Assembly: GCA_022571255.1 (NCBI GenBank)
Contig: JACZYD010000017.1
Location: 1 to 36,866 of the forward strand
Direction of reading: 5' to 3'
Length of the DNA: 36,866 nucleotides
From: Bacteroidota bacterium
Lineage (GTDB): Bacteria > Bacteroidota > Rhodothermia > Rhodothermales > UBA10348
Shown here: one piece after another, positions 1-33,781 of the stretch
Layout: every line of letters begins with the position of its first letter
Numbering within the stretch: the first letter of the stretch is position 1
Translations under genes and position numbers: made by a program
Notes under the pieces: generated by a model
Seen by the model: the letters and a program-made list of their open reading frames with translations, nothing else
Database searches by the model: none
Told to the model about the DNA's origin: nothing

Positions 1-1581
<1,581 letters not shown>

Positions 1582-1674
1582 GGGTCACAATCGAAACGTC
1601 GCTTTTTCCCGCGGGTCATAATTGGAACGTCAATTTTTCCCGCGGGTGATAATCGGAACCTCATTTTTTCCCGG
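1582..1674. repeat. three tandem 31-bp repeats, resembling an IS21-type end
   Basis: Three head-to-tail 31-bp units lie at 1582-1612, 1613-1643 and 1644-1674. Neighbouring units differ at about five positions. Each reads GGGTCAnAATnGnAACGT and then a T-tract followed by CCCGC. The third unit contains the stop codon and the last codons of the leftward methyltransferase gene. As I recall, direct subterminal repeats carrying a GGTCATAATTGGAAC-like core are typical of IS21-family ends. No istA or istB transposase is present nearby, so if this is an IS end it is a relic or a solo end. The repeats are seen directly; the IS assignment is inference. Confidence 0.85.
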
Positions 1675-7451: not shown

Positions 7452-7751
7452 GTCTCTAACGCATCCTTTGATTGGATCCTTGATTAATTATCGGCACGTT
7501 TTCCACCCGCGATAACTTTAATGTCTCGTGGTACCCTGCCGTTTCCCCGTTCACGGTCATATACTGCCCGGTCAGCCTGTTTTGCAGACAACGAATCCGT
7601 CTACCCGAGAAACGATTCGCTTGAACAGAGTCACGTTGATCTAAATTAGGGCTCGCCGGGACTTCCTGCAATTGTGCCGCCAGCGGATAGCCGCATATGA
7701 AAAGCCGCTACGAACAAATTCCACTGCCGCTGCGAACAAAGGCCACTGCCG
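7452..7751. other. 300-base spacer between hflX and CBS gene
   Basis: This spacer holds the 22-bp repeat array at its right end (7704-7787) and probably the promoter of the CBS gene at its left end. A 71-codon minus-strand frame at 7456-7671 shows no recognisable domain and an amino-acid make-up typical of chance frames, so I do not call it. No tRNA-like fold or strong terminator was seen. Confidence 0.4.
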
Positions 7752-7787
7752 CTACGAACGAAGGCCGCCGCCGCTACTTGTCAACGG
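7704..7787. repeat. 22-bp tandem repeats covering the 3' end of hflX
   Basis: Units at 7704-7725, 7726-7747 and 7748-7769 share the core GCCGCTnCGAACnAA and are followed by a partial fourth copy from 7770. The array runs into the hflX coding region, so that the last residues of HflX (SSGGGLRS) and its stop codon are made of repeat units read on the minus strand. The unit is unlike the other arrays in the window. Confidence 0.85.
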
Positions 7788-17755: not shown

Positions 17756-20346
17756 CCCTTCGCGGCCTGCTCACGCTGCTCCATTCGCTCGATCATCGCG
17801 GGTAAGAAGATAATTGCTGCAAGCAGCGTGGTCCCAATTCCTATCACGGCGAGTTCTCCTATCGAATGAAGGCCGGGATGAAAACTGAGCAATAACCCGC
17901 CGAATCCTACCATGGTTGTCAGCGAACCCATGATTACGTGTTCGCCGGTTGAAAGCACGACGCGCATCATTGACCCGGATCCTTCCTCTCGATATCTGTG
18001 AACAAGATGAACGCCCGCATCATTGCCGATTCCCAGAATTGCCGGGAAAACAATGAGGTTGTAAAAGTTGATTCGAAGGTCAAGAAGCTCAACCACGAAC
18101 AACATCCAGAGAATACCCACAATAAGCGGAAGCAGTGCAAGTGCCGACCATCGAAGCGACCGGAAATTCAGATACATGAGAGCACAGACAATCAGAAACG
18201 TCGCTCCGATCATCCAGGGCGATTCCTTCTGCATCAACTTCAGCATGTCGGCTGCGACCAGAGACGTCGAGCCCGCGTGATATACTTTCCCCTCCTCAGT
18301 CGTAATCGTTCCCACGTCATTCGAAAACGCGATCGAATTCCGACCATCGGAAAGACCCACTGACGGGTAGATCATCACGAAATTTCCGATCTCTCCGGAT
18401 TTTGATGTGAATTGCCTCCGCAGGAATTCAGGGACCTGATCGATCTGGATGGTTTCCGTTGTGGACGCCGCCAGACGAAGCCTTCGAATGTCTGCTGATG
18501 AATCGGCTTCCATAAAACGATCGGCGAGCTGTGCACGAATCTCGCGGAGTCGATCGAGCCTGTTCTGCTGCTTTTCTGATGTCAACGGAAACCGGTCCTG
18601 AAGCGATTCCACTTTTAAAATAGTGGGAGACGTTGTGTCCGATGCGATTATGTACTTTACTGCAGCTACAAGATCGTCTACTTCCTCACGAGAATCCACT
18701 ACTATGTATGCTGGATTTCGACCGCGGCTGCGTCCTTCTACACGATTAATCACAACAGCCCGAGAATAGTAGGCTTCATATCTGGGTTCAAGTTTCCCGA
18801 ACTGATATTCAAAAGATACCCGGGGGAGAAGCACGATTGCAGCAATAACTGCTACCGTACTGCCCAGCAGAATGGTCTTGTGGGCCGGAATATGTCGCCT
18901 GTACCCAGCTCCAAGTGGTGCCGTGTTGTGATCATCGTCGGCGCCGGTATCATCAATGCCGGCGGTATCATCAATGCCGGCGGTATCTCGAAGGTGGTGG
19001 CGGCTTTCCGGGCCTCCGAGCCTCAATATTCCTGTCCGTTCAAAGAGCACAATCATCGCAGGCATCACGAATAACATTGCGACCAGAGCGTTCATGATAC
19101 CGGTGCCCGCAATAAGACCGAATTGAGAAAATCCCCTGAAATCGGCCAGAATCAGTACGAACATAGCCGCCGAAGTCGTCAGCGCGCCGACCGTCACCGC
19201 CTGTCCGGTACTCATGAACGTGATTTCGATGGCTTCCGTGACGCCTCGACCAGCTCCTCGCTCTTCCGTATACCTGGCGTAAAAATGAATGCCGTAATCG
19301 ATACCCAGTCCGAAAAGAACAAGACCCAGCGCTGAGGTCATCAGATTGAGCGTACCAAAGACAATCGAAGCCAATGCAAACGTCCACGACAGGCTCATCA
19401 AGAGCGGAATTCCTATCAAAGCGGCCAGTACGGGTGCCCGCAGTAACATGGATAACACAAGAGTAAGCCGAACGCCTTTTCCGGTCCTGGCCCGAACCGA
19501 TTTATACAGGAAATAAAAGACCACCATCAATAACACAGCGAGTATGCCTGTGCCAAATGAACCAATTACGTCATCCCGGATAGTGGTTGCCTCGATGAGT
19601 TGACGAAGCAACCTTCCGGCAGAAGTAACTCGCATTGCGTCGTGATACGCAGTCGGATCCAGAGACAATAAAAGCAGATCCAGATCCCGATACGCAGCCT
19701 CAATAAATTTAAAGTCGGTTTGCGAACCACTGGGATAAAATCGTACGACCAGCGTCAGACTATCCTCGGAAATCGGATATTCACTCGATACGATATCTCT
19801 ATAAATAAGGTCAAGTTCACGGCCCAGCGAGTCCGTTTCAGACTCAAAATCACTTTCATCATCTTCCTCTATGTCGAAGAAAAATGGATTCGTATCGAGA
19901 GAAGCCTGCTCGATTTTTGCATCCAGATAATCCTGGAGCATATCCAACTCTTCCTCCGTCGCGAAATAAAGTGCATTTTCCCGGAGGAACGAAACGTCCT
20001 TTCTGAATTCGACTCTCTGAAAGTATGGTTCGTCGTAGTCGGCTCCCTTCATTGCAAGAACTTCCGGGATCATTATTTCAGCAAAAGCGACGTTGGCTTC
20101 GAAGGATGGACTCTCGATGGCTATGGCAAGCTCTGACTCCCCTCCCACTGTTTCTCTGAGCTTCTCCAGTGCTTTTACACTTTCATAGTCCGGCGGCAGA
20201 AGGTTAGCGAGGTTTGTATCGATCGTGAGGTGCAGGGCGAAAAAAAAGCTCACTGCTGACAAAACGGCGGCCGCTGTCAAAACCATCGTACTCCTGTGCC
20301 CGACCAGGCGAATAGCGGGCCGTAATAAACTGAAAAATCGTTCCAT
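17698..20346 (-). CDS. RND/MMPL-family exporter with sterol-sensing-like fold
   Basis: This 882-residue inner-membrane transporter has the two-fold repeat of the RND superfamily. Each half has one hydrophobic helix, a large extracytoplasmic loop and five more helices. Half one starts near residue 18 (STMVLTAAAVLSAVSFFFAL) and has the TM4 motif FGLGIDYGIHFYARYTEE near 345. Half two has the matching GIGNDAGVHLVHRYREE near 777. Such MMPL/HpnN-like proteins export lipids or hopanoids with proton drive. The ATG at 20346 gives a sensible N-terminus (MERFFSLLRPAIRLVGHRS); an upstream ATG at 20409 adds 21 unlikely residues. The linker between halves carries a DTAGID repeat made by an 18-bp DNA repeat. 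The C-terminal tail is encoded by another array. Next to two GT4 genes, glycolipid or lipid transport is plausible but unproven. Confidence 0.88.
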   Translation of the reverse strand: MERFFSLLRPAIRLVGHRSTMVLTAAAVLSAVSFFFALHLTIDTNLANLLPPDYESVKALEKLRETVGGESELAIAIESPSFEANVAFAEIMIPEVLAMKGADYDEPYFQRVEFRKDVSFLRENALYFATEEELDMLQDYLDAKIEQASLDTNPFFFDIEEDDESDFESETDSLGRELDLIYRDIVSSEYPISEDSLTLVVRFYPSGSQTDFKFIEAAYRDLDLLLLSLDPTAYHDAMRVTSAGRLLRQLIEATTIRDDVIGSFGTGILAVLLMVVFYFLYKSVRARTGKGVRLTLVLSMLLRAPVLAALIGIPLLMSLSWTFALASIVFGTLNLMTSALGLVLFGLGIDYGIHFYARYTEERGAGRGVTEAIEITFMSTGQAVTVGALTTSAAMFVLILADFRGFSQFGLIAGTGIMNALVAMLFVMPAMIVLFERTGILRLGGPESRHHLRDTAGIDDTAGIDDTGADDDHNTAPLGAGYRRHIPAHKTILLGSTVAVIAAIVLLPRVSFEYQFGKLEPRYEAYYSRAVVINRVEGRSRGRNPAYIVVDSREEVDDLVAAVKYIIASDTTSPTILKVESLQDRFPLTSEKQQNRLDRLREIRAQLADRFMEADSSADIRRLRLAASTTETIQIDQVPEFLRRQFTSKSGEIGNFVMIYPSVGLSDGRNSIAFSNDVGTITTEEGKVYHAGSTSLVAADMLKLMQKESPWMIGATFLIVCALMYLNFRSLRWSALALLPLIVGILWMLFVVELLDLRINFYNLIVFPAILGIGNDAGVHLVHRYREEGSGSMMRVVLSTGEHVIMGSLTTMVGFGGLLLSFHPGLHSIGELAVIGIGTTLLAAIIFLPAMIERMEQREQAAKGWKGSATTNVTPGTATDKA
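18943..18987. repeat. 18-bp in-frame tandem repeat inside the RND exporter gene
   Basis: Two units at 18943-18960 and 18961-18978 and a partial third read GnCGGTATCATCAATGCC. On the minus strand they encode the hexapeptide DTAGID in frame. They sit in the cytoplasmic linker between the two halves of the transporter, where added length should be harmless. Confidence 0.85.
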
Positions 20347-22411: not shown

Positions 22412-22428
22412 GGGCGTTCGTTTACCAG

Positions 22429-22488
22429 CGCTGTATGTACTGACGCTGTATTCACCGGCCCTGTATTCACCGGCGCTGTATGTACTGG
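22429..22488. repeat. four 15-bp tandem repeats upstream of the M48 gene
   Basis: Units at 22429-22443, 22444-22458, 22459-22473 and 22474-22488 alternate between CGCTGTATGTACTGn and CnCTGTATTCACCGG. They fill most of the gap between recF and the M48 peptidase gene. The spacing is a multiple of three and the minus-strand frame stays open, so a start further upstream would encode repeats of the TYSAG/EYRAG kind. Confidence 0.9.
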
Positions 22489-23680: not shown

Positions 23681-24019
23681 GCGATGATTACGCGATCACG
23701 TTGTATTCGTTCACCGTTCCGACGGCGGCCGTCACGGCGGCCAACTTGCCGTCGACTGTAGCTCGACTGGGCTGTCGTTGTGGCCTACGGCGGCCGTCGC
23801 GGTAGCCGACTTGCCGTCGACTGTAGCCCGACTGGGCTGTCGTTGTGGCCTACGGCGACCGTCGCGGTAGCCGACTGGCCGTCGACTGTAGCCTGCGACG
23901 GCCGCGCCGTACAACCACCTTGATTGCCGGATTGAATATGGTGTAATTTCTTTCCGGTATTCCGACGGCTGCTGTTCGGGCTGGCTGATTATATTCTCCC
24001 GCAATTTATTGCAACCCGC
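23681..24019. other. 339-base divergent spacer between recF and murQ
   Basis: This spacer holds the 65-bp repeat array (23721-23905) and must contain promoters for recF and murQ. The AT-rich stretch at about 23960-24010, just before murQ, is the most likely promoter site, but I cannot assign exact boxes. A chance minus-strand frame of 137 codons (23732-24145) crosses the array and is not called, because its sequence is repeat translation plus antisense murQ. Confidence 0.5.
23721..23905. repeat. 65-bp tandem repeat, about 2.8 copies
   Basis: Copies begin at 23746, 23811 and 23876, exactly 65 bp apart; the first two are full length with few mismatches. The last is partial, and the right part of a further copy precedes the first (23721-23745). 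The unit is GC-rich and includes GCCGTCGACTGTAGC and CGGCGGCCGTCGCGGTAGCC, which can pair with each other in part, so each copy could fold. It is the longest unit in the window. Confidence 0.92.
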
Positions 24020-30294: not shown

Positions 30295-32253
30295 TCAGGC
30301 TTCGACCACCGACTGTTCGGATCGGGCAGAACGCTCGGTTGTTTCGATCTCATGGTCCAGCGAGGGCAATGTAAATGTATCCCGTTGCAGCAGTATCAGA
30401 AGAACAGAGATATCTGCAGGGCTCACGCCACTTATGCGAGAAGCCTGTCCTATATTTTCGGGTCGTATTCTGGAAAGTTTCTGTCGCGCCTCTATCGAAA
30501 TATTCCGTACCGAGTCGAAATCGAAGCCCTCTGGAATCTTCCTGGACTCCATTTTTCTGGTTTTGGCTACCAGAGCCGATTCTCGCTCGAGGTATCCGGC
30601 ATATTTCAGCTCAATTTCCACGAGCGTCTCGGATGCCTCGATACCCGGCGCTTCAACGACGAGCTCCGCGCGTCTTTCAATATGGTCTATCAGAGCCGAC
30701 AGACCAACCTGCGGCCGAACCGCCAATCGCGCGATACGCTCGGGCTGTTTGATGGCCGACGTACCGGCGGCCTCAAGAAAAGAGTTCACCGAATCAGGCG
30801 AAACGTTTTCCCGCTCAATATTTGCTCTCGTCTGTTCAACCGCGTGTCGTCTGAGCTCCATTCTTCGCATTCTTGCTTCATCTACAAGCCCTATTTCGTA
30901 TCCGATCGGGGTCAGCCGGCGATCCGCGTTGTCCTGACGAAGCAAAATGCGGTGTTCTGCGCGAGAGGTAAACATCCGGTATGGTTCGTCCGTGCCTTTG
31001 GCCACGAGGTCGTCGATTAAAACACCGATGTATGCCTGATCCCGTCGCAGTACGACAGGCGCTTGACCATTCAGCATTCGCGAAGCATTTATTCCAGCCA
31101 TTAATCCTTGTGCTGCGGCCTCTTCGTAGCCTGTTGTCCCATTGATCTGACCCGCGAAATAAAGTCTTTCGACATTTTTTGTCTCGAGACTATACCGAAT
31201 CTGATAAGGGGGGAAATAATCATACTCAATCGCGTATCCCGGCCTTATCAAGTGCACATGCTCGAGTCCTCTCGTCCTTCGCAATGCGTCGATCTGAACC
31301 TGTTCCGGGAGACTGGTTGAAAATCCGTTGACGTAAACCTCTTCCGTTTTCCAACCCTCAGGCTCAAGAAATAACTGGTGCTGACTTTTTTCGGCAAATC
31401 GATCGATTTTCTCTTCTATCGATGGGCAATACCTCGGACCCTGTCCCTTAATCTTTCCTGCAAACATGGGGCTCCGATCGAAACCGGTTCTCAGCACATC
31501 GTGAACGGATGGGTTGGTATACGTGAGCCAGCAACTTCGCTGGCGCGTCGGAAGAGCGTCGGTCATGAACGAAAATGGACTCGGATCCGGATCGCCCGGC
31601 TGTTCTTCGATAAGATCGTAGTTTATGGTTCGACCGTCAATTCTGGGTGGCGTTCCTGTCTTCAATCTGCCGCTTTCAAACCCGAGATCATGGAGCGTAG
31701 CCGTCAATCCTCTGGAAGCAGTCTCTCCCATGCGACCTCCTCCGAATTGTTTTTCACCCACATGAATGGTTCCGTTCATGAACGTACCGTTTGTGAGTAT
31801 CACTGCCCGGGCGCGGATGTCGCGACCAAGCCGTGTGCGAACTCCTTCCACACCGGATTGAGATACCAGTAAGTCCGTCACCATGTCCGCTCGCATCGAA
31901 AGTTTTTGAATCGATTCGAGATCTTGCCGGACGGCATTCGCATAAAGGATCCGGTCGCACTGTGCGCGGGGCGACCAGACCGCAGGCCCCTTGCGTTTAT
32001 TCAACATGCGAAACTGGATTCCTGCCCGGTCGGTAACGCGACCCATGAGCCCTCCGAGCGCATCAATTTCCCGTGCTATCTGCCCTTTACCGATTCCTCC
32101 TATGGCCGGATTACATGACATTCTTCCGATCGCCTCAAGGTTCATCGTGATCAGTAATGTCTTGGCTCCCATTCTCGCAGACGCAGCGGCAGCCTCTGAC
32201 CCTGCGTGACCACCGCCTACTACTATTATATCGTATTCGACTATATCCACCAT
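30295..32253 (-). CDS. mnmG: tRNA uridine-34 carboxymethylaminomethyl synthesis protein MnmG
   Basis: MnmG (GidA) with MnmE installs carboxymethylaminomethyl groups at the wobble uridine of several tRNAs, using FAD, NADH and methylene-tetrahydrofolate. The 652 residues begin at ATG 32253 (MVDIVEYDIIVVGGGHAG), with the FAD dinucleotide site at once. Family signatures include MSCNPAIGGIGKGQIAREID, GPRYCPSIEEKI, VNGFSTSLP and GQINGTTGYEEAAAQGL. The C-terminal helical domain that contacts MnmE and tRNA is present and ends with SEQSVVEA. An upstream in-frame ATG at 32367 would overlap mnmE and is not used. The gap from mnmE is ten bases, so the two partners are cotranscribed. Length is slightly above the family's 620-630. 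Confidence 0.96.
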   Translation of the reverse strand: MVDIVEYDIIVVGGGHAGSEAAAASARMGAKTLLITMNLEAIGRMSCNPAIGGIGKGQIAREIDALGGLMGRVTDRAGIQFRMLNKRKGPAVWSPRAQCDRILYANAVRQDLESIQKLSMRADMVTDLLVSQSGVEGVRTRLGRDIRARAVILTNGTFMNGTIHVGEKQFGGGRMGETASRGLTATLHDLGFESGRLKTGTPPRIDGRTINYDLIEEQPGDPDPSPFSFMTDALPTRQRSCWLTYTNPSVHDVLRTGFDRSPMFAGKIKGQGPRYCPSIEEKIDRFAEKSQHQLFLEPEGWKTEEVYVNGFSTSLPEQVQIDALRRTRGLEHVHLIRPGYAIEYDYFPPYQIRYSLETKNVERLYFAGQINGTTGYEEAAAQGLMAGINASRMLNGQAPVVLRRDQAYIGVLIDDLVAKGTDEPYRMFTSRAEHRILLRQDNADRRLTPIGYEIGLVDEARMRRMELRRHAVEQTRANIERENVSPDSVNSFLEAAGTSAIKQPERIARLAVRPQVGLSALIDHIERRAELVVEAPGIEASETLVEIELKYAGYLERESALVAKTRKMESRKIPEGFDFDSVRNISIEARQKLSRIRPENIGQASRISGVSPADISVLLILLQRDTFTLPSLDHEIETTERSARSEQSVVEA

Positions 32254-32263
32254 TGTCAGATTA

Positions 32264-33781
32264 TTATTTTCCGATACAGAATTCAGAAAATATGTGACTG
32301 AGCACATCCTCATTGGTCGTCGCTCCCGTGATAGCTCCCAGCTCAAACATGGCCGTACGTAATTCAAGTGAAAGGATATCTCCTGACGCTGACGACTCCC
32401 AGGCTTGTGATGCGTTCCCGACTGCGGTCAACGCACGCTGGAGGTGGTCGCGGTGGCGCAGATTGGTTAGTATCGGAGCAGCTTCATCAAGAATCCAATC
32501 ACCCCGAAGAGAATCAATCAGCTCTGTGAGGACAGGCAAAAGGATCGTCTCGTCGGATTGTGCCTCCTTGGCACTGATAAATCTGGTTTGATATGCAAGA
32601 ATGTCCGTCTCGATATTATTCGTTTTGTCGGCCTGCATTGCGCCGGCCCGTGTGCTGTCGGCCTGCATCGTGCCGGTCTGTGTAGTGTCGGCCTGCATTG
32701 CGCCGGCCCGTGTGCTGTCGGCCTCTATCGCGCCGGCCTGCTTAACGCGTAGAAGATCCACTTTGTTTGCAAATACCTTGATGACGAGATCTGGTCTTTC
32801 GGATCGCATTCGCGCGAGAAAGTCCTTCTCGTCCTGATCTAACCCGATCAATGCATCAAAAACATAAAATAGAGCATCCGCGTGTCTTATCGATTCTTTG
32901 GCCCGGCGCACACCTTCTGCCTCGATTGCGTCCTGCGTGTCACGAAGGCCCGCGGTATCCCGGAACCGGATTCTGAGGCCGTCAAATTCGACTTCGGCCT
33001 CAATTTCGTCTCGCGTTGTCCCGGGCACATCAGATACGATGGCACGTTCATATCCGACCAGGGCATTCAGCAGGGTAGACTTGCCCGCGTTGGGCCGACC
33101 ACCTATCACGACCTGAATTCCGTCTCGGATCAAGGCGCCGAAACGATACGATTCGAGCAAACTGGTAAATAGAGCCTGGCTTTTTTTGAAAAGCTGCGTA
33201 AGCCGATCAGGTGAAGCAAACTCGACGTCTTCTTCGGAAAAATCCAGTTCCAGTTCAATGGCCGCGCAAAGATCCAGCATTTCTGATCGAATTGCCTCAA
33301 GTTCAACCGAATAACCACCCTTCAGCTGGGCAAGTGAGCTCTCCTGTGCCCTCCTGGACGAGGCATCTATGATGTTTGCCACGGCTTCGGCCTGGGACAG
33401 ATCCATCCGGCCATTCAGAAATCCGCGTTTCGTAAATTCTCCAGGTTGAGCGGGCCTTGCCCCGGCTTCAATAAGGCTCTGTATGATCCGGGCGGCCGCA
33501 TAATCACCGCCGTGACAGGTGATTTCAACCACATTTTCACCCGTTACGGAGTGCGGCGCAAGAAAAACCGAAACAACAACCTGATCGATTTCTTCTTTCT
33601 TTGACGTGGAAATAAAGCCTACTGCAAGGGTATGAGAGCCGATTTCCTGGATCGCAATGCCCGGAAAACACGAACCAGCGATATCCAGAGAAGCCGGTCC
33701 TGACAGCCTCACAATCGCCAGTGCGGCTACGCCTCTGGCCGTAGCGAGTGCAACAATGGTATCGTCATCCACCTGTCGCAT
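32264..33781 (-). CDS. mnmE: tRNA modification GTPase MnmE with a repeat insertion in the G domain
   Basis: MnmE is the dimeric GTPase partner of MnmG. The 505 residues have the N-terminal tetrahydrofolate-binding domain (DDDTIVALATARGVAALAIV; LNGRMDLSQAEAVANIID). The G domain has Walker A GGRPNAGKSTLLNAL near 228, the G2/K-loop segment SDVPGTTRDEIE, DTAGLRDT (about 275) and NKVD (about 336). SAKE, the G5 motif, is near 401. The C-terminal CIGK with the essential cysteine is intact. Between NKVD and SAKE lies an extra stretch of about 40 residues made of 10-residue repeats (MQADSTRAGA-like) encoded by a 30-bp tandem repeat. This makes the protein about 45-50 residues longer than usual. All catalytic motifs remain, so it is probably active with an exposed disordered loop. 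Start ATG at 33781. Confidence 0.95.
   Translation of the reverse strand: MRQVDDDTIVALATARGVAALAIVRLSGPASLDIAGSCFPGIAIQEIGSHTLAVGFISTSKKEEIDQVVVSVFLAPHSVTGENVVEITCHGGDYAAARIIQSLIEAGARPAQPGEFTKRGFLNGRMDLSQAEAVANIIDASSRRAQESSLAQLKGGYSVELEAIRSEMLDLCAAIELELDFSEEDVEFASPDRLTQLFKKSQALFTSLLESYRFGALIRDGIQVVIGGRPNAGKSTLLNALVGYERAIVSDVPGTTRDEIEAEVEFDGLRIRFRDTAGLRDTQDAIEAEGVRRAKESIRHADALFYVFDALIGLDQDEKDFLARMRSERPDLVIKVFANKVDLLRVKQAGAIEADSTRAGAMQADTTQTGTMQADSTRAGAMQADKTNNIETDILAYQTRFISAKEAQSDETILLPVLTELIDSLRGDWILDEAAPILTNLRHRDHLQRALTAVGNASQAWESSASGDILSLELRTAMFELGAITGATTNEDVLSHIFSEFCIGK
32631..32750. repeat. four 30-bp in-frame tandem repeats inside mnmE
   Basis: Units lie at 32631-32660, 32661-32690, 32691-32720 and 32721-32750. 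The first and third are identical, the second differs at a few positions and the fourth is more diverged. Each begins GCCTnnATnGnGCCGG. Thirty bases keep the frame, adding ten residues per unit to residues about 344-383 of MnmE. The identity of units one and three suggests recent duplication of a two-unit block. Confidence 0.95.

Follow-up and report, generated by a model that had tools for sequence, protein, structure and literature searches.

An in-frame minisatellite between the G4 and G5 motifs of MnmE in a bacterial genome rich in tandem arrays

The closest solved structures to the protein described here, both by sequence and by fold, are those of the GTPase MnmE (TrmE/ThdF; TIGR00450; PDB 3gee, 1xzp and 9hip), with which it shares all domains, the G motifs and the FCIGK motif. 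It differs from them by an insertion between G4 and G5, in which a repeat encodes about 42 additional residues. Repeats of this general kind are not new. The intragenic tandem repeats of Legionella pneumophila (Coil et al. 2008, PMC2639597) are likewise in-frame minisatellites lying within genes, with potentially variable copy number, whereas the array reported here interrupts the G domain of a GTPase with a housekeeping role and is known from a single genome. Prokaryotic genomes rich in satellites have also been described, among them Methanosarcina, Burkholderia pseudomallei and Chloroflexus (Subirana and Messeguer 2019, PMC6749651). Like those genomes, the source genome of our locus contains many dispersed short tandem arrays in which periods that are multiples of 3 are favored, as expected for coding arrays; unlike them, its arrays are mostly of 2-4 copies and the excess is absent from the congener. 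Arrays of at least four copies occur at about 25 per Mb (TRF), similar to the highest bacterial value of 23.0 per Mb in that survey, although the methods differ. A literature search found no paper joining Rhodothermia and tandem repeats. Bacterial tandem repeats within coding sequence and prokaryotic genomes rich in satellites are thus both already known, and the interest of the MnmE array is the genome around it.

The MnmE array and its host gene

The features of the window, by which we mean the whole 36,866-nt stretch of DNA analysed, are collected in Table 1. The mnmE product has the domain order of the enzyme, with a TrmE N-terminal domain, a helical domain and a G domain inserted in the helical domain (Pfam TrmE_N, MnmE_helical and MMR_HSR1 at residues 8-125, 128-502 and 223-330, respectively). 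It scores 349.7 bits with TIGR00450, well over that model's own cut-off, and 356.5 with NF003661, slightly under the cut-off of 380; we attribute the shortfall to divergence together with the insert. Every invariant column of a 43-sequence homologue alignment is present. The invariant or near-invariant residues include G233, K234, S235 and T236 of the P-loop, T255-D258 of switch I (TTRD), D275-G278 (DTAG), E287 (the glutamate after DTAG), N339, K340 and D342 of NKxD, and S403 and A404 of the SA motif; the C-terminal FCIGK motif occupies residues 501-505. Neither this alignment nor the domain matches gave any sign of a pseudogene, and the MnmE reaction itself would be unchanged by the insert. 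Directly downstream lies what we take, from its recognizable sequence, to be an mnmG-like ORF (30295-32367), and an ORF that is presumably rsmG-like on the same grounds also adjoins mnmE.

Table 1. Features of the window. Repeat units 1-4 are numbered along the plus strand in one fixed register (32628-32747); mnmE itself is on the minus strand.
Feature	Position	Strand	Remarks
mnmE (trmE/thdF), tRNA uridine-5-carboxymethylaminomethyl(34) synthesis GTPase, 505 aa	32264..33781	-	Pfam, TIGR00450, invariant columns
Repeat unit 1	32628..32657	-	30 bp, in frame, identical to unit 3
Repeat unit 2	32658..32687	-	24/30 to unit 1
Repeat unit 3	32688..32717	-	30/30 to unit 1
Repeat unit 4	32718..32747	-	most divergent, 21/30; 5'-most unit in mnmE
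18 bp x 3.2 array (DTAGID), inter-domain linker of HpnN-like MMPL/RND transporter	18931..18987	-	TRF; in frame; just after MMPL match 316-462
15 bp x 3.9 array, N-terminus of BepA-like M48 protease	22424..22482	-	TRF; in frame; M48 match from residue 141
31 bp x 3.0 array, mostly intergenic	1581..1673		TRF
22 bp x 3.4 array, 3' end/downstream of hflX	7704..7777		TRF
65 bp x 2.6 array, intergenic	23722..23893		TRF

The original prediction, made from the letters of the window, was of an in-frame minisatellite of four 30-bp units in the G domain of MnmE between G4 and G5, and this was borne out both by TRF and by the units read in a fixed register. TRF places a 30-bp x 3.8 array (score 163) at 32626-32740, in frame and between the G4 motif NKVD (residues 339-342) and the G5 motif SAKE (403-406). 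The predicted span of 32631-32750 is about 3 bp off the register adopted in Table 1. Units one and three are identical, as had been claimed; relative to these two, unit 2 has 6 base differences and unit 4 has 9, and the 30-mers flanking the array match the units at just 9/30 and 3/30 positions. At a period of 30 the array matches itself at 71/90 positions, and none of 200 shuffles gave more than 41. The array is therefore a coding minisatellite in the usual sense: its units are head-to-tail, within 10-100 bp and more alike than expected by chance, they lie in an ORF and their period is a multiple of three.

The same 32626-32740 interval is also reported by TRF as a 60-bp x 1.9 array, with a 92% match and the better score of 202. 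This better-scoring period and the ABAB' order of the units suggest that a 60-bp block duplication was superimposed on an older 30-bp duplication. The predicted recent change is also probable, the identity of units 1 and 3 suggesting that the array was rearranged not long ago.

The G4-G5 spacer in relatives and in the predicted structure

Taken to start four residues ahead of FANKVD and to run past SAKE, the spacer segment is 78 aa long here and about 27-40 aa in most relatives from the order and in Bacteroidota homologues. On these segment lengths the insertion amounts to ~42 residues relative to typical relatives, close to the 40 or so originally proposed. The alignment that had been suggested as a check found no relative with the same insertion: the array is absent from every Rhodothermia-order relative in which the spacer is covered. 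The only congener, G001, is a MAG that is 74% complete and from which mnmE was not recovered; the closest sequences with which this locus could be compared therefore come from other members of the family and are no more than about 63% identical.

Two members of the same family as the source genome, L026 and L006, do carry long low-complexity segments at the same spot (70 and 53 aa), and these suggest that the G4-G5 segment is a recurrent insertion site. They also raise the alternative that the family has long had an insert here, and that it became repetitive only recently. Their sequences, however, are dissimilar to the MnmE repeat of the window and most family members have a short spacer, which makes an old shared insert unlikely. 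Unrelated inserts at one place indicate instead that the site tolerates length and that the window array was not inherited from a common family insert.

In Ras-like folds the G4 and G5 motifs both contact guanine. The original prediction that the loop faces the region near the guanine base is correct as to its placement between these motifs, but an AlphaFold2 model built from the alignment (mean pLDDT 86) gives no sign of the loop packing on the pocket. Its best fold matches are MnmE structures (9hip, 3gei, 3gee and 1xzq). Structure modelling had been proposed as a check on the loop, and the repeat region (residues ~350-390) is modelled as a protrusion from the well-predicted G domain, with pLDDT of about 48-56 compared with >90 for most of the surrounding domain; a low pLDDT does not in itself prove disorder, and some helix is modelled in this region. 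The product of the repeat is thus predicted to be a flexible loop of about 42 residues, rich in Ala, Gly, Thr, Asp and Gln, that points away from the normal G fold.

The codon differences between units bear on constraint. Counting units in gene order, all 4 of the codon differences between units 2 and 3 are non-synonymous, as are 5/6 or 6/6 in the comparisons with unit 1. Because most differences change the amino acid, the frame alone looks constrained. Nothing points to constraint on the peptide of the repeat units, although with so few changes the pattern is only suggestive.

Could the repeat be a functional element, in which copy number alters nucleotide affinity, G-domain dimerisation or coupling to MnmG and so produces reversible variation in tRNA wobble modification? 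Its position between G4 and G5 in the G domain would suit such a role, MnmE activity depends on G-domain dimerisation (PMC2749940), and the two identical units suggest recent change. It is also possible that the array affects activity, since it differs from most of the other arrays examined in lying within a folded domain, beside the nucleotide pocket. Against this, neither the repeat nor its length is conserved in relatives, the unit differences are mostly non-synonymous, the repeat is modelled as a low-confidence protrusion and many equivalent arrays occur in unrelated genes and in intergenic regions. We consider tuning improbable. The original prediction had left a choice between tuning of GTPase behaviour and an insert that is simply tolerated; the non-synonymous changes, the restriction of the insert to this species, the unrelated inserts that relatives carry at this site and the similar arrays across the genome speak against the former, and by the same evidence the latter is the better supported of the two.

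Tandem arrays in the window and across the genome

Besides that of MnmE, TRF finds five arrays in the window, some coding and some intergenic, with a score of at least 50 and a period of at least 15 (Table 1). A contig of the congener (G001:C217) is collinear with 5.8-29.5 kb of the window, an interval that contains four of the window arrays. The congener lacks the repeat residues of both the MMPL transporter and the M48 protease, its region at the hflX end is shorter and has no array, and the region of the 65-bp array is 209 bp shorter; the interval at the array beginning at 1581 is 40 bp shorter.

The source genome is a draft MAG of 3.29 Mb in 205 contigs, 99% complete, from an uncultured bacterium whose closest named relatives among the genomes compared belong to the Rhodothermia. 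We sampled 41 stretches of it totalling 485 kb with TRF, calling genes crudely as the longest ORF. This sample contains 87 tandem arrays. Arrays with a TRF score of at least 80 occur at 1.24 per 10 kb. The corresponding densities are 0.08 for ten relatives from the order, over 636 kb, 0.21 for the congener and 0.35 for Bacteroidota loci pooled together. The comparison rests on this threshold because a cut-off of at least 50 alone gives weak contrast: at that level the density in the pooled Bacteroidota loci is 1.09 per 10 kb. No arrays appeared in a first-order Markov control made for the initial 256 kb. By its density in the 485-kb sample, far above both relatives and chance, the source genome belongs with the satellite-rich genomes, and extrapolation gives several hundred arrays for the whole of it. 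The MnmE array is therefore not special to MnmE, but one of many across the source genome, a wider pattern that the original prediction had missed.

Inside called ORFs, 35/40 arrays have a period divisible by three, compared with 12/47 elsewhere (Fisher p = 6e-9). The arrays are commoner outside genes than expected, with 47/87 being intergenic or at gene edges though about 88% of bases are in the crude ORFs. The bias in period is what real DNA under selection for frame would show. Assembly artefact has to be weighed here, given a draft of 205 contigs and the known tendency of tandem repeats to cause assembly errors (PMC6868369). The frame bias of the coding arrays is a strong argument to the contrary, since frame is something an assembler cannot know. 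Moreover, the units are imperfect copies, just 5/87 arrays are near the ends of the sampled stretches and the relatives, likewise fragmented drafts, lack the excess. An artefactual origin is accordingly very improbable, although the exact copy number of arrays in a draft assembly may be wrong even where the arrays are real.

A mobile or dispersed repeat family that seeded the same unit in many places would account for arrays that are both numerous and species-specific. Protein and DNA searches of the whole genome with the MnmE unit, however, revealed no second significant copy and returned chance-level matches only, and the units of different arrays share no k-mer beyond a random genomic control. 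With no motif in common among the units, a dispersed element has very little probability.

Ten array-bearing proteins were scanned against Pfam, and the arrays examined were found mostly in linkers and at termini. The arrays of an E2 acyltransferase, bL25, a GH95 protein, an AcrB-like pump and the M48 protease are in linkers or termini outside domains: in frame in the linker between lipoyl domains for the E2 enzyme (ETDGAA repeats, L147:5205-5285), in frame in the C-terminal tail after the last domain for bL25 (L147:1858-1918), after the last domain for the pump, and before the first domain for the GH95 protein and the protease. The MnmE array is unusual in that it interrupts a folded domain. 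Separately, one minus-strand ORF (L144:513-1838) combines matches to a TPP-enzyme C-terminal domain and to the 49 kDa subunit of complex I, which is an unusual pairing; close to the N-terminus this ORF also has an in-frame repeat of 84 bp.

Origin of the arrays and implications

The explanation that we favor, with a probability of about 0.8, is that minisatellites arose in a burst specific to this lineage and were then filtered by selection on reading frame and site, the MnmE loop being a tolerated by-product. The MnmE array would be one of many products of this genome-wide and apparently recent burst, probably created by tandem duplication through replication slippage or slipped-strand mispairing, in which a 30-bp unit arose first and was apparently followed by the 60-bp block duplication. 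It would occupy a loop that tolerates changes in length, between G4 and G5 of the G domain, where selection may hold the frame and leave the loop sequence largely free and neutral.

The driver of the burst, we infer, would be some change in replication or repair. RecJ, MutS1 and Pol I are all present in the source genome, so the loss of any of these three was rejected as the driver. SbcD (TIGR00619) was not detected there, but in most of the family it is likewise undetected or represented by weak partial matches only, including in sampled members without an array excess, whereas most of the order's other families that were searched have it with scores above the cut-off. The absence of SbcD is thus not sufficient as a driver, and among RecJ, MutS1, Pol I and SbcD no replication or repair defect explaining the burst was found. 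More tentatively, a single replication or repair change in this species might have set off a genome-wide wave of minisatellites since the split from the congener, through which many genes, including essential ones, gained disordered in-frame segments; we regard this stronger version as possible but rather doubtful.

Taken alone, the MnmE loop suggests that a conserved GTPase can accommodate some 40 additional residues in its G4-G5 segment. The source genome is an unusual bacterial case that offers dozens of independent insertions in which to score the protein sites that accept new disordered sequence, and its array excess could point to an undescribed replication or repair phenotype. If a wave triggered by a single change did occur, it would amount to a natural experiment in the acquisition of disordered protein regions by bacteria.
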